Of a stretch of 64,000 nucleotides of DNA, positions 28,200-34,313 are shown piece after piece. This DNA is from Candidatus Zixiibacteriota bacterium (lineage in GTDB: Bacteria > Zixibacteria > MSB-5A5 > GN15 > FEB-12): contig JAGNLV010000001.1 of NCBI GenBank assembly GCA_017999435.1, positions 1,148,746-1,212,745 on the forward strand, in the 5' to 3' direction. The translations under genes and the position numbers were made by a program. Position 1 is the first letter of the stretch, and every line of letters starts with the position of its first letter. The notes beneath the pieces are model-generated. The model saw nothing but the letters and a program-made list of their open reading frames with translations. It did not search any database and was not told where the DNA came from.

Positions 28200-28323
28200 C
28201 GGGGCCGCACACTATCGGACTGGAACGCGGGCATTCTCCGGACAGCAGGGGGAGACACAACGATGAGCAGCGCCCCGCTCCGGCGGGCGAACAACCGAAC
28301 CTGTGACAAGGGGACCGGGACAT

Positions 28324-30708
28324 ATGAGCGAGCATTTTCTCTCCGCCCTGCGGGCGCAGCTGCGCGCGCACGGGCAGGCGCCCCTGCGCGTCATCGGCAT
28401 CGACCTGGGCACCACCAACTGCACGGTCGCGGAGATTGTCGCCGACGGCGCGGCTGAGGATTTCGAGCCGCGGTGTATCGAGATCGAGCAGGAGACGCCG
28501 TTCCAGGGTGAGTACACGCACATCCTGATACCCTCGATCGTCGCGCTCCACGGCGGCCGCGAGTATGTCGGCGAGGGGGCCAAAAGGCTGCGGGCCGGCC
28601 TCGCCGGCCCGGAGACCGGCCTGGAGCGCAATCGGACGATATTCTGGGAAGTGAAGAACGAGATGGGGATCCAGCGCACCTACGCGCGCGCGCCGGAGGG
28701 GTATCGCGGCGCGGCCGAAGTGAGCGGTCGGATTCTGCGGTTTCTGGCCAACAGGTACCGGGCGGACCACGGGGAGCCGCGCAAGGCGGTGGTGACGGTG
28801 CCGGCTTCGTTCCAACAGCCGCAGCGAGAGGATACGCTCCGGGCGGCCAAGCTGGCGTCGATGGAACTGGCCGGGGGCGACCTGCTCGATGAGCCGCTGG
28901 CCGCCTTTGTCGACTTCTGGATGCGCGGGGAATTGGCGAAGGCTCTTCCGCGCGGAGAGGGCAATGTCCTCGTGTTCGATTTCGGCGGGGGCACTTGCGA
29001 CACGGCCGTGGTGAAGGTCCACGCGGGGGACGCCGCGGGCCACCTGAGGGCCTCCCCGCTCTCAGTGTCGCGCTACTACCGCCTCGGCGGCGGCGACATC
29101 GACCTGGCGATCTTCTACGAAGTCCTCCTCCCGCAAATAATGGAGCAGAACGGATTGAGCGAGCGCGACCTGGATTTCGGCGTGAAGAAAAACCAGCTCG
29201 AACCCGCGTTCCTCGGCATTGCCGAGTCGCTCAAAGTAGGTCTATGCACGCAGGTGCGGCGTCTCAGGGAGCTGGCGCGGGGCGCCGAACTCCCGATCGA
29301 GCCGGTCCAGAAATTGCCGGCGACGGAGCGCTGCCGGCTCACCAACGGCCGGGAGATCACTCTGCAGTCCCCCGCCCTGACACTTCCGCAGTTTGAGGCT
29401 GTGCTGGAGCCGTTTCTGGACCGCACCTTCGTGTTCCATCGCGAGACGGAGTACCGGTTGACCTGTTCGATCTTCGCGCCGCTTGAGGATGCCCTCGACC
29501 GGGCGGAGCTCGACGCGCGGGAGATTGATTGCTGCCTGCTGGTGGGGGGCAGCTCGCTGATCCCGCAAGTGGCCGATGCCCTCCGCAGTTACTTTGAACC
29601 CGAGAAAGTCGTCCTGTACTCGCACCCGGATCAGGTGCAGTCGGCGGTGGCGCGGGGCGCCGCCGCGCAGGCGCTCTCGCTGGCCGTCCTCGGCCGGGGG
29701 GTGCTGCAGCCGGCCTCGCCCACGGGCGTGTGCATCCGAACAACCGCCGGGAAGATGCAGTTGATTCCGCCTCACAGCCCCCTGCCGTACCCGGCGGCAG
29801 GCGAATGGGCGATGAATACCAACCTGGCTCTGCCCAAGCGGCTGAGCCAGACTGAACGCGTAGTCCGGATCGAACTCATCGGGACCGATGATTCGCTCAT
29901 CCAACGCTGGACCTGGTTGGTGCCCCCGGCAGCCGCTCCCGGCGAACCGTTGACCCTCCAGTACTGCATGGACGAGAATCAGGTGATCCGGTACCGGTTG
30001 GACTTGGAATCGGGAACCGGTCGGGAGGGTCTCACCGGGAGCACCGAGAACCCGATCCATAACGTGGTCAACCCCGACCTCAAGCGAATCAGGATTCTCG
30101 AACTTGAGGAGTGCCTCCGGACCTCGCTACCCGCCGGAGAGCAACAGGAGGAAATGGTGGTCGAAATCGCCAACTTGAGCCGGGAGCTTCGCCAGTATGA
30201 CAAGGCACGCTACCTGCTGGAGAGAGTTCTCCGCACCCGGGGCGGCGGCGACATCGGGGTTCTCAATTACCTGGGCATAGTGTGCGGCGAGCAGGGTGAC
30301 CGCCAGGCGGAGGAGAAGTACTACAGAGAAGCCGCCCGGCTTGGTTCCGATGCCGCTCAATTCAATCTCGCCTACTTCTACCGCGACCACGGTTCGCTGG
30401 CGAAAGCCGCCGAGGCGATTGAACGCCTGGTCGAGCGGTTCCCCAAGGGTCCGTATTTGGTGCTCAAGGCCGACATTGCCGAACGGGAGGAGCGGATTTA
30501 CGAGAGCAAGCGCGCTTTGGAGATGGCCAGGAAGGCGTTTGGGCCGGTGAAATCGCTGAGCGACTGGGAACTGAGTTGGTACGAGCACGGCGCCAAACTT
30601 GCCGGCGACGAGGCGGCGCAGGAGATGGTTCGGGCGGAGAGGAAACGGCGGCGGCGCTCAAACGCCCCCGAACCGAGCGGACTCCTTCCAGAAATGAGGG
30701 AGGCCTAG
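28324..30708 (+). CDS. Hsp70-like ATPase with C-terminal TPR region
   Basis: 794 residues from the ATG at 28324 (AAGGGG upstream). The actin/Hsp70 ATPase domain shows as GIDLGTTNCTVAE near 26-38, VLVFDFGGGTCDTAVV near 214-229 and LLVGGSSLIPQVADAL near 403-418. The canonical substrate-binding half is replaced after about 420 by a divergent beta-rich segment, and then by TPR-like helices (about 600-770: LREL..YDKARYLLERVL, YYREAARLGSDAAQFNLAYFYRD). It is therefore a DnaK-like paralogue, not the housekeeping chaperone, and no DnaJ or GrpE is nearby. It is followed after 8 bp by an SF1 helicase gene. Function unknown; a chaperone-helicase partnership is likely from gene order. Confidence 0.85.
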   Translation: MSEHFLSALRAQLRAHGQAPLRVIGIDLGTTNCTVAEIVADGAAEDFEPRCIEIEQETPFQGEYTHILIPSIVALHGGREYVGEGAKRLRAGLAGPETGLERNRTIFWEVKNEMGIQRTYARAPEGYRGAAEVSGRILRFLANRYRADHGEPRKAVVTVPASFQQPQREDTLRAAKLASMELAGGDLLDEPLAAFVDFWMRGELAKALPRGEGNVLVFDFGGGTCDTAVVKVHAGDAAGHLRASPLSVSRYYRLGGGDIDLAIFYEVLLPQIMEQNGLSERDLDFGVKKNQLEPAFLGIAESLKVGLCTQVRRLRELARGAELPIEPVQKLPATERCRLTNGREITLQSPALTLPQFEAVLEPFLDRTFVFHRETEYRLTCSIFAPLEDALDRAELDAREIDCCLLVGGSSLIPQVADALRSYFEPEKVVLYSHPDQVQSAVARGAAAQALSLAVLGRGVLQPASPTGVCIRTTAGKMQLIPPHSPLPYPAAGEWAMNTNLALPKRLSQTERVVRIELIGTDDSLIQRWTWLVPPAAAPGEPLTLQYCMDENQVIRYRLDLESGTGREGLTGSTENPIHNVVNPDLKRIRILELEECLRTSLPAGEQQEEMVVEIANLSRELRQYDKARYLLERVLRTRGGGDIGVLNYLGIVCGEQGDRQAEEKYYREAARLGSDAAQFNLAYFYRDHGSLAKAAEAIERLVERFPKGPYLVLKADIAEREERIYESKRALEMARKAFGPVKSLSDWELSWYEHGAKLAGDEAAQEMVRAERKRRRRSNAPEPSGLLPEMREA

Positions 30709-30716
30709 TTTGTGCC

Positions 30717-31976
30717 ATGGGCGTCTGGCTGGTACCTGAAAGCGAACTGACACCCGATCAGATTCGAGCGGTCCAATTGCCGACCGACGGCCACAAGGTT
30801 GTTTCCGGTCCCCCGGGATCGGGCAAGACCCTGGTGCTTGTTCATCGCGCGCGGTATCTCCTCGACTCAAAGGGAATCACCGGCGGGCAGCTCCGCCTGT
30901 TTGTCTATACCCGCACCCTTCGCGACTACATCCAGTCGGCCCTCAAACTGCTGGGTATTGCCGACGAATGCGTGCTCACTTTTGACGCGTGGTGTCGATC
31001 CTTCTATCTTTCGTGCGTGGGCAACCCACCCCCTAGGGATGAGGTTAATGGCCAGCTTGACTTCAGGGAGATCCGACGTGCTGTTCTCAGAGCGCTCGAG
31101 ACTGCACCGGTAGCACCGGTTTACGATTATGTGCTGGTCGACGAGGGTCACGATCTCGACGAGATTTCCTACAAGATCCTCGTCCGGATCGCCCGCCACA
31201 TCACTGTCTGTATGGACAGGAAACAGCAGATCTATGACGATGGTGCGGCCGAGGAACGGGTGCTTCACATACTCGGGCTGCCCAAGCGCAGCGTTGCTCT
31301 CCTTGAGGCGTATCGCTGCTGCCCCTACATCACCCGCCTGGCCGCGACCCTCCTGGACCGCCAGGAGCGACAGCCGTATTTGGGGCAAATGCGGACCGAG
31401 CAGGTGGAGAGGGAGAAGCCGCTGCTGTTCATCGCCAATGCACAGGAAGCGGAGCTTCACGAGCTCGCGCGGCAGATCAGGGAGCGCCAGAGGGTACAGG
31501 GCAGGAATGACGGCGGTGGCGGGAGCATCGCTATCCTGTTTCCCCAAAAGCGCATGGTCTTCGGATATGCGAACGCGCTGGCCGATCTCGGCGTACAGGT
31601 TGAAGTGCACCTGGACCGGCCCGCCCAGCAGGCCAGATATGAAATGGTTGATTTCCGGAACAATCTCCCCAAGATACTGACTTACCACCAAGCGAAGGGG
31701 CTCACATTTGATTCGGTGTTTATGCCGCGCCTGGTCGGTTACGCGTTCAAACGAGTATCTGAACCGCGCTTGCGCCGGCTGCTGTTCGTCGGAATCACAC
31801 GGGCCAAGAGCTGGGTTTATATGAGCACGGAGGACTCGCGGATGCTCCCATGCCTCAACGCGATCTGCGATGAGTCCGGAGACTTTCTGGCTGTCCGATA
31901 TTCCGGCGGGAATGACGGGCCGAAGCCGGACACTGACAGCGGTGAGGAAGACGGGTTGGCGAACCTCTTCACCTGA
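30717..31976 (+). CDS. compact UvrD/RecD-like superfamily 1 helicase
   Basis: 419 residues. Walker A GPPGSGKT (31-38), Walker B VLVDEGHD (about 139-146), motif IV region YRCCPYITR (about 199), motif V AKGLTFDSVFMPRL (about 325) and motif VI RRLLFVGITRAKSW (about 352) are all present. The 1B and 2B insertions of full UvrD/PcrA are absent, and the length is far below the usual 650-750, so this is a minimal SF1 ATPase. GGAGG lies about 13 nt before the ATG. The 8-bp gap from the Hsp70-like gene implies co-transcription. Possible roles are DNA/RNA remodelling in defence or repair; neither is shown by the sequence. Confidence 0.85.
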   Translation: MGVWLVPESELTPDQIRAVQLPTDGHKVVSGPPGSGKTLVLVHRARYLLDSKGITGGQLRLFVYTRTLRDYIQSALKLLGIADECVLTFDAWCRSFYLSCVGNPPPRDEVNGQLDFREIRRAVLRALETAPVAPVYDYVLVDEGHDLDEISYKILVRIARHITVCMDRKQQIYDDGAAEERVLHILGLPKRSVALLEAYRCCPYITRLAATLLDRQERQPYLGQMRTEQVEREKPLLFIANAQEAELHELARQIRERQRVQGRNDGGGGSIAILFPQKRMVFGYANALADLGVQVEVHLDRPAQQARYEMVDFRNNLPKILTYHQAKGLTFDSVFMPRLVGYAFKRVSEPRLRRLLFVGITRAKSWVYMSTEDSRMLPCLNAICDESGDFLAVRYSGGNDGPKPDTDSGEEDGLANLFT

Positions 31977-32124: not shown

Positions 32125-32237
32125 TGCGTCATCTGCGTCAGGCCTGACGCACCCTGTGACGCACCTGCGCGCCGGTAACTCGTTTCCCCTCAACACGATT
32201 TTTGCCGCTGCGTCGCGCTGCGTCACGAACTGCGTCA
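32125..32237. repeat. array of TGCGTCA motifs with an 18-bp palindrome
   Basis: Direct copies at 32125, 32134, 32219 and 32231, a variant TGCGTCG at 32209, and inverted copies TGACGCA at 32145 and 32157. The pair at 32134/32145 forms the perfect palindrome TGCGTCAGGCCTGACGCA (32134-32151). Neighbouring copies are 9-12 bp apart, close to one helical turn, as expected for cooperative protein binding. Confidence 0.7.
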
Positions 32238-33186
32238 CAAGACAGATCCATCCGGCCGTTCACACTCTTCGCACGGCGCCTCTCTTTCGCGATAACTCAC
32301 CTACACAGAATGCGATAGCGAATTCGTGACAGCGCCGCCCGCCGATTGGCACGCCGGTTGATATAACTGAGCGCAGCAGGCGCGCACACGAGCCGCAGCT
32401 TCAACATCACCTCCCGGCTGCCTCGCTGTGTCGACGCCTGGCTGACCATACTTAACGCGAAAGGTCTCCGTCGCCGGGCGGGCTTCCAAGCGAGCCCGAC
32501 TCAATCCGGAACCCGCCCGGCCCGGGACCTTAACCGCCGGCGGAGGATACGTTCCGGCCGGGTGTTTCGGCCGATGCGTCATCTGATGGCGCGCCGCGGT
32601 CAGCGCTCCCGCGGGAGCGCGGCAACCTGGTGCTCACAGGCAGACAAACCCCTTTGGGAGAGAGGGGGTAAGGCTCACATGAGGAGGAACACAAACCTAG
32701 ATTGAAAGCGATGGAGGGCCAATGAGACCGGACGGGTCGCATGGGGAGAGGCGACCGGTCGGGAGCGCGGGGCGGCAGGCACAGCACTTCGCGCAGCCGC
32801 CATCGGCTCCGCCGAATCAGCCAGTATCTCACGCGAGAGCCACTGGGAGTGTTCCCTCTCATTTGAGCGCGTGTAATCCTCGTGCGGCCGGGGCGGGCTC
32901 TCGGCGGCAGTGCGCCCACACCAACCGCCGACGCCCCCCCGGCCCGAGGAAAAAAGGAGGAACGAGGTCGTTCACTGGAAACGGAATCAGCAAGAGACGA
33001 TCGCCAGGGCGGCGCTGACTGAGTCGCGGGCCTCAGCCTGACCTTGCGTTCACTCCCCTCGACCGCCGGCGCGGAGGCATAGCCACATGAGTCAAGGGAT
33101 GAACGCGACGACGCGAGGGATGCGGGTCCGCGGGCCAAGGCCGGTTGACTCGGTGCCCGGCCGAAGTTCCGTCGTGCAGCGGAGGC

Positions 33187-33215
33187 TTGATCACCTTTAA
33201 CCCGAGGTTTATCAA
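33187..33215 (+). promoter_or_regulatory. probable promoter for the small exported protein and TonB-like gene
   Basis: TTGATC (33187-33192), 17 bp, TATCAA (33210-33215). The outer CTTGAT and ATCAAG also form an inverted pair. Confidence 0.4.
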
Positions 33216-33253
33216 GGCACTGAACGAGGTGGTTAAGTCGGCTGTTGCTCTTT

Positions 33254-33448
33254 ATGCTAGTGCCGGCGTTGTCGGCCTTTGTGGTGCCGCTGCCGGCGAC
33301 GGCGGAAGGCCCGTTTGATCCACACATCGACAGCCGGCCAGGCTGTCACGGCTGTTTCACCGAGACCGGGTGCATCTTTTTCGCCTTCTTCTGCAGCGGG
33401 TTGGTTATGATCATCGACTGGGCCCATGTGAGCCTGATGGCGTACTAA
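33254..33448 (+). CDS. small exported cysteine-containing protein, function unknown
   Basis: 64 residues. A signal peptide (MLVPALSAFVVPLPATAE) is followed by a short mature part with CHGCF, CIFF and CSG, then a hydrophobic stretch ending HVSLMAY. No ribosome site is evident close to the ATG. It lies 16 bp upstream of the TonB-like gene. A real gene is plausible because of the clean signal peptide, the paired cysteines and the promoter just upstream, but no family is recognised. Confidence 0.45.
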   Translation: MLVPALSAFVVPLPATAEGPFDPHIDSRPGCHGCFTETGCIFFAFFCSGLVMIIDWAHVSLMAY

Positions 33449-33464: not shown

Positions 33465-34313
33465 ATGGAACGGGGAAGCATGAACTACTGGCTGATCGGC
33501 TATGAACAGAAGCGGTCCTACCAGGGCAACCTGCTGAGGGCGCTGCTGAGCACGGCGCTTCTGTTTATCGGCCTCGGTGTGCTGATCCGGTTCGCGGAAC
33601 CGGGTGCGGAACGCCGGGTGTCCTGGTCCGACCGTCTGTTGGGCGGGGTTGCGGCCGAGACGGCGGCGATCCAGCCGACGGGCCGGGGCGGCGGAGCCGG
33701 CGGCGGGCAGGGCGCCTCCCACGCGGCACCCTTCCTGCGGGGCTACGTCGGCCCGGTTGTGATCATCCGGGACGCCCCGAGCACGATCCGACCGGCGGTA
33801 GCGGTGCTGCCCGGACCATCCGAACCCGATCCTTTGCCGTCGCCGGTGCCGGGCGAACCGGGCTGGGGAGGCGACTTCGCCGGCCAGGGGGACAATCCGT
33901 TTGGCCTGCCGGCGAGCGAACCCTACCTCCCCCCGGTCGGCAACGGCTTCGACGGCTTCGACGGCTTGGGCGGTGACGGGCTGAACTGGGCGCCGGCGAT
34001 CCGGATTCGACCGGCGGGCTGGCCCATGGACGCCGATAACGTGCCCCGTGTCGACTCCGGCGTCGTCTGGCTGACGCTGACGATCCATGCCGACGGGCGG
34101 CTGAGCTTCGTGGTCGATTCGGCGTACCCGGAGGCACGCGGATTCGTGCCGAATGTCGAGTGGGCCCTGATACAGAGCCGGGTGGAACCGGCGCTCCAGG
34201 CGGGGGAGCCGGTGGCGACGACCTTCGCCATGACCTACATCGTGCGCCGGGGCGGGGTGGAAAGCGTTGTTCACAGCAAGACCGGCTACGTGCGGGGGTT
34301 TGTGGCGGAGTGA
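33465..34313 (+). CDS. TonB-like energy-transducer/periplasm-spanning protein
   Basis: 282 residues (277 if the ATG at 33480 is used; GGGGAAG lies just before it). A short cytoplasmic N-terminus is followed by one membrane anchor (about 27-46). A long Pro/Gly-rich periplasmic linker follows (LPGPSEPDPLPSPVPGEPGW, then NGFDGFDGLGGDG). The C-terminal TonB-like domain shows as VWLTLTIHADGRLSFVVDSAYP, IQSRVEPALQAGEP and FAMTYIVRRGG. TonB couples the inner-membrane proton gradient to outer-membrane receptors. exbB, exbD and any receptor are absent from this window, so the partner is unknown. Confidence 0.7.
   Translation: MERGSMNYWLIGYEQKRSYQGNLLRALLSTALLFIGLGVLIRFAEPGAERRVSWSDRLLGGVAAETAAIQPTGRGGGAGGGQGASHAAPFLRGYVGPVVIIRDAPSTIRPAVAVLPGPSEPDPLPSPVPGEPGWGGDFAGQGDNPFGLPASEPYLPPVGNGFDGFDGLGGDGLNWAPAIRIRPAGWPMDADNVPRVDSGVVWLTLTIHADGRLSFVVDSAYPEARGFVPNVEWALIQSRVEPALQAGEPVATTFAMTYIVRRGGVESVVHSKTGYVRGFVAE

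Follow-up and report, generated by a model that had tools for sequence, protein, structure and literature searches.

The window (the whole 64-kb stretch of DNA that was analysed) carries at 32125-32237 a group of short repeats around a palindrome, for which the initial annotation had counted six exact copies of TGCGTCA/TGACGCA and one variant; re-reading of the sequence bore this count out (Table 1). The copies had been described as mostly 9-12 bp apart, and such distances were found within each of two sub-clusters (9, 11 and 12 bp; 10 and 12 bp), but 52 bp separate the sub-clusters. An eighth TGCGTCA, placed at 32575 by the same annotation, is present but isolated, downstream of the promoter element described below and without counterpart in two sister arrays, and was not counted as part of the array; this copy (32575-32581) has the 11 bases TGCGTCATCTG in common with the first copy and stands alone ~210 bp behind the promoter element. 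Ahead of the array, 28303-30708 codes for an Hsp70-like ATPase with C-terminal TPR, directly followed at 30720-31976 by a short UvrD-like helicase that matched the PADLOC NERD+UvrD model (1.4e-25) and several GajB models; the two are a possible chaperone-helicase pair.

The total of TGCGTCA in the window is ordinary (11 copies, shuffle mean 9.15). When the window was simulated 100 times with a first-order Markov model, 113 bp never contained more than 2 copies, against 6 observed; none of its other 7-mers attains 6 copies within that length. The genome-wide count proposed as a check in the initial annotation gave 246 copies against 228 of the reversed pattern in the 3.5-Mb genome, so that single copies are ordinary there too. 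Exact pairs at most 30 bp apart occur at only 2 loci, the window array and C1:1045316-1045429, with 0 in the reversed-pattern controls. The simulations and the pair counts thus speak against such clusters being common by composition alone.

Table 1. Features of the array and of the DNA behind it (window coordinates; distances are from the -24 box)
Feature	Position	Strand	Remarks
Half-site TGCGTCA	32125..32131	+	-222; matched in both sister arrays
18-bp palindrome TGCGTCAGGCCTGACGCA, two half-sites	32134..32151	.	32134+ and 32145-
Half-site TGACGCA	32157..32163	-	-190
Variant half-site TGCGTCG	32209..32215	+	-138
Half-site TGCGTCA	32219..32225	+	-128
Half-site TGCGTCA	32231..32237	+	-116
AATGCGAT	32309..32316	+	-36; between array and promoter; conserved in the three own copies
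Sigma-54 -24/-12 promoter element TGGCACGCCGGTTGAT, 16 bp	32347..32362	+	best match in the window; equivalent place in sister copies
Presumed untranslated leader	32375..33244	+	inferred from promoter position; no convincing ORF seen
67-aa ORF, signal-peptide-like start, candidate target	33245..33448	+	start codon unsure; no Pfam family
282-aa ORF, N-terminal hydrophobic segment, candidate target	33465..34313	+	distant homologue in genome G040

Sister arrays and the sigma-54 promoter

The second array (C1:1045316-1045429, in stretch L005), used as query in a similarity search, gave as its best three places itself, C1:1313777 and the window. The window array is 72% identical to the second array over 120 bp (3.4e-6), and the copy at C1:1313777 (stretch L006), which is degenerate, 77% over 264 bp. 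A hit at C3:136291 (9.2e-4) was rejected, since there is no array there and it falls at the end of an ORF that looks ferredoxin-like by eye; array-DNA matches at E 1e-3 to 1e-2 in 6 of 98 genomes, the own one included, were likewise rejected for the five foreign stretches, which were without a half-site cluster.

Each of the three arrays is followed by a sigma-54 -24/-12 promoter, to which its half-sites keep the same spacing. With the -24 box as reference point, the window and L005 alike have half-sites at -222 (+), -202 (-), -190/-191 (-), -138 (+), -128 (+) and -116 (+), while the L006 copy has the exact half-site at -222 and variants at the remaining places. Within the palindrome, the half-site at 32145 (-202) is the conserved one; that at 32134 (-213) occurs in the window copy only and is extra with respect to the sisters. 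When the three copies were aligned, the likeness extended beyond the half-sites. Same-strand half-site spacings over the loci of the activator family described below followed a period of ~10.8 bp (R 0.45; uniform null at 10.5 bp 0/5000), a test in which spacing pairs from one locus are not independent.

The element at 32347-32362 is the top sigma-54-like site of the window on both strands (score 14.5, runner-up 14.0). The promoter pattern YGGCAYNNNNNTTGAT had 10 matches in the genome, against 0 for the reversed pattern, and these include all three arrays and the locus of an activator paralogue; a gene for sigma-54 (RpoN) is also present (PF04552, 8.2e-59). The -12 element of the window promoter reads TTGAT instead of the usual TTGCT/A, which counts against the enhancer reading. 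For Desulfovibrio, tGGcacg / tTGCt has been reported as the -24/-12 consensus, together with an activator site made up of three half-sites (PMC4641369).

Two readings of the array bear on this geometry. That the three copies are relics of duplicated DNA, with a window copy devoid of present function, draws some support from the degenerate L006 copy and from the identity between window and L005, but is very improbable, since the six shared half-sites (34/42 positions identical) and the promoter (14/16) have been kept where the remaining DNA has drifted to 77/180, and since the spacing to the promoter is preserved nearly to the base. The initial annotation had also listed plasmid or phage origins (iterons) and partition sites, which a Rep- or ParB-like protein would bind and which the phased 7-bp repeats and the palindrome might indeed recall; this was set aside as having next to negligible probability, given that the array is inside a 1.33-Mb contig with the Hsp70-like and UvrD-like genes as neighbours, that at all three of its genomic locations its copies are spaced constantly from a sigma-54 promoter, and that relatives carry similar arrays downstream of activator genes. 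The remaining function on that list, an operator, gained support in the form of a sigma-54 enhancer, from the promoter-tied geometry and from the arrays that in relatives have an activator gene on one side and a sigma-54 promoter on the other.

The gene controlled from the window promoter is unsure because the first plausible ORF begins as far as ~880 bp behind it, a distance that counts against the enhancer reading. Behind the L005 promoter follow a 396-aa protein and its 382-aa paralogue (41% identical), and behind the L006 promoter a 262-aa protein (L006:8165-8953); all of these, like the two ORFs of the window, look exported by eye from their hydrophobic starts. No Pfam family was found at the gathering cut-off for the proteins behind the three own promoters. 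Distant similarity links the 396-aa protein to the one found behind L111 (24%, 6.7e-10), and the protein starting at 33465 to the one behind L103 of G040 (34% over 62 aa, 5e-7), which has a TPR activator and a sigma-54 site ahead of it. Among six homologues of the 33465 protein, that of G040 alone has an obvious sigma-54 site close upstream. The idea that the sigma-54 target is always a small secreted peptide was dropped, as lipoprotein-like and larger exported-looking proteins also stand behind the promoters and short Cys-bearing ORFs only sometimes. Behind the position of the promoter search in L097, L106 and L107, and at 33245-33448 of the window, there are short ORFs (57-67 aa) that look exported, contain Cys and aromatics and are bacteriocin-like by eye only. 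In L005, a 148-bp piece of the leader behind the sister promoter (L005:7599-7746) is repeated with 96% identity 4.9 kb downstream (L005:12543-12690).

The TPR activator, its relatives and the half-site code

The second array starts ~30 bp past the stop codon of an activator gene (C1:1043137-1045287) that lies ~136 kb from the window array and codes for 717 aa with TPR, sigma-54 AAA+ and Fis-type HTH domains. Pfam matches were Sigma54_activat (PF00158, 1.4e-56), TPR_12 (4e-20) and HTH_8 (PF02954, 1e-6, above the cut-off), and a GAFTGA loop is legible in the translation. Among the NCBIfam matches listed, none was above its cut-off. When the TPR part was compared with solved structures, it matched only LGN/Pins, Tonsoku, kinesin light chain and a designed TPR protein, with none of the solved RRNPP receptors among the sequence matches.

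Activator matches at 1e-60 were obtained in 92 of the 98 neighbourhood genomes, partly over the AAA+ domain only. For comparison, 50 loci were sampled (30 + 20 from the homologue search, weaker matches being left out), of which 43 contain the activator C-terminus and 42 enough DNA behind the stop. A sigma-54-like site (score at least 13) lies 60-420 bp downstream of the activator stop in 31 of these 42 homologues; the same test gave 3/39 for generic activators of other bacteria (mostly Bradyrhizobium and other Proteobacteria) and 7/18 for other activators of the own genome. Half-sites between stop and promoter vary among the homologues (e.g. TGCGTAC, TGCGTAA, TTCGTAA, TGCGACA, TGCGAAT), and parts of the geometry recur: the 53-bp gap between blocks in L101, L133 and L134, a position of -114 to -116 for the last half-sites of L102, L133 and L134 and for the second last of L127, and half-sites at -127/-128 in L102, L127 and L133. 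No array was found by half-site search in L097, the top-scoring homologue in another genome (52%). Conservation in related genomes, which the initial annotation had made a touchstone of its claim, thus holds for the arrangement, while the exact array sequence was not found in relatives. The activator family is apparently large and undescribed.

The recognition helix, E..[VIFL]RX, was legible in 36 loci, 24 of them with at least three half-sites; of the other 12, five have none and seven have two. In the 24 loci, bases 6-7 of the half-site followed the helix residue X: CA with R (5/5), AC with K (4/4) and AA with N (3/3) and S (1/1), with Y accompanied by AA (4), AT (4), AG (2) or GG (1). In a permutation test 0/5000 arrangements matched as well, for a residue X and a pattern T[GT]CG[TA]NN that were both picked post hoc, after inspection of the data. 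One locus below the cut of three goes against the rule: L112, with residue N, has TGCGTCA in two members only. Over a tree of 33 loci X changed 4 times for R, 5 for K and 8 for Y, so that ancestry does not account for the match. Independent pairs were concordant for R (3/3) and K (4/4) with none contrary, the pairs being too few for the sign tests to reach 0.05.

The own genome supplies a natural specificity control. Stretch L145 (G000:C3:301500-308000) holds a second TPR activator, likewise accompanied by a small ORF; the half-sites there read TGCGAAC/TGCGTAC and the promoter TGGCACACTGTTTGAT. The gene of this K-type paralogue (C3:304531-306618) and that of the R-type activator, which goes with TGCGTCA, are sisters on the tree (99/90). 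The covariation is the strongest evidence that the window array would be read by the R-type activator and not by its paralogue.

Taken with the fixed geometry and the position of the activator gene beside the sister copy, this covariation argues that the array is very probably the upstream activating sequence (enhancer) through which the TPR activator C1:1043137-1045287 would act on the sigma-54 promoter at 32347-32362. The enhancer might instead be bound by another Fis-type activator, the present gene standing beside the sister array by chance. The genome has ~20 strong Sigma54_activat matches, and no activator gene was seen close to the L006 array within its stretch, as is true of the window array. 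Such an assignment is nevertheless improbable, because arrays in relatives adjoin genes of the same activator family, because the half-site tracks the helix residue of the activator, and because the helix VRRRI is unique to this activator among the 14 with a readable C-terminus in the genome. The HTH script read these 14 out of 20 stronger Sigma54_activat matches, and the six unreadable ones leave room for another R-type helix.

For the activator encoded beside the sister array, we infer binding, looping, activation and the choice of transcribed genes along the following lines. The protein would bind TGCGTCA half-sites through its C-terminal Fis-type helix-turn-helix, forming dimers where two half-sites are inverted, as in the 18-bp palindrome, and stacking where neighbouring half-sites are in helical phase; it would then form an AAA+ hexamer, loop ~110 bp of DNA to the promoter and open it by ATP hydrolysis, so that the putative exported proteins of 33245-33448 and 33465-34313 are made. 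The same activator would also serve the two sister promoters, directly behind its own gene and at C1:1313785.

As a sigma-54 enhancer the array is ordinary in principle; its extent and its owner are unusual. It shares with the NtrC/NifA/NorR type the AAA+ Sigma54_activat domain, the Fis-type HTH, RpoN, and half-sites with dyad symmetry that precede the -24/-12 promoter by 110-220 bp. It differs in the number of half-sites, six to seven, and in their division into two phased blocks with 52-53 bp between them, in a sister array that stands behind the activator gene, in a small, probably secreted ORF in front of that gene, and in an N-terminal TPR in place of the receiver or other sensory domains known for such activators. 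UAS sites are bound by pairs of D domains according to a review (PMC7175178).

The small ORF and comparison with peptide signalling

In 31 of 39 evaluable loci, those of the own two activators included, the activator gene is directly preceded by a small ORF (74-134 aa, basic-hydrophobic start), as counted with a hydrophobicity and RBS rule for signal-peptide-like starts. Under a stricter rule, which misses the own L096 case, the count was 25/31, against 0/39 and 0/14 in controls. The distance from the small ORF stop to the projected activator start runs from -55 to +152 nt, often with overlap. In 27 of the 31 small ORFs a D/E is followed within 0-2 residues by G/P/S-W, and pN/pS values of 0.36-0.58 in nine compared pairs suggest that the ORF is coding. 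Two tandem small ORFs with signal-peptide-like starts were seen in each of L103, L104 and L115; for L104 and L115, the two ORFs begin almost identically and diverge thereafter. The small protein is probably secreted, to judge from its predicted start, and is the leading candidate for the signal sensed by the TPR domain.

The gene arrangement resembles that of RRNPP/RRNPPA systems (Rap, Rgg, NprR, PlcR, PrgX, AimR), in which the gene of a TPR regulator adjoins or overlaps a small ORF with a Sec-like start (excerpts of PMC9765709 and PMC10075063). Validated RRNPP pairs have gene distances of -50 to 191 bp, and the distances here fall within or near that range; RRNPP_detector, by default set to receptors of 250-500 aa and propeptides of 10-100 aa, was applied to Firmicutes and viruses (all from extracts of PMC10075063). 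The receptor here, at 717 aa, is outside the default range and longer than the 285-473 aa of RRNPP receptors; the small protein has 74-134 aa as against 21-50 aa, and the output is a sigma-54 AAA+ protein with C-terminal HTH. The cassette was not filed as RRNPP because the receptor is longer, the output is different and peptide binding is only putative. RRNPP-like quorum sensing with an enhancer-type output was not found described for this lineage in the open-access literature.

LuxO is a phosphorelay response regulator. The activator is like the LuxO type in being a sigma-54 AAA+ protein, and the NCBIfam LuxO model matched its AAA+ part (7.4e-56), at 189.9 bits far below the 800-bit cut-off; unlike LuxO-type proteins, it has no receiver domain that Pfam could find.

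The cassette suggests, without proof and by analogy, peptide sensing that would work like RRNPP quorum sensing with a sigma-54 output. More tentatively, and with rather less than even confidence, the window array may belong to one of many parallel peptide circuits. The small protein (conserved D/E-x-G/P-W, variable rest) and the TPR activator would be made from one operon; the small protein would be exported, matured and bound by the TPR domain, which would free the AAA+ ring, and the targets would be exported proteins, partly small and cysteine-bearing. With its own half-site code for each receptor (helix R, K, N or Y), such a scheme would allow several circuits per cell without crosstalk.

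In the open-access literature, to which the search was confined, no description was found of a sigma-54 activator that has a TPR domain and is linked to a small secreted protein. The cassette as a whole is a novel version of enhancer-dependent regulation. If the small protein is the signal, this would be peptide signalling through a cytoplasmic TPR receptor with an output not found described in that literature. What was an anonymous repeat array becomes a testable regulon of three promoters and one regulator, and it leads to a large family of sigma-54 activators with TPR domains, in which the code of protein-DNA recognition can be read and to which a small, probably secreted protein is linked.
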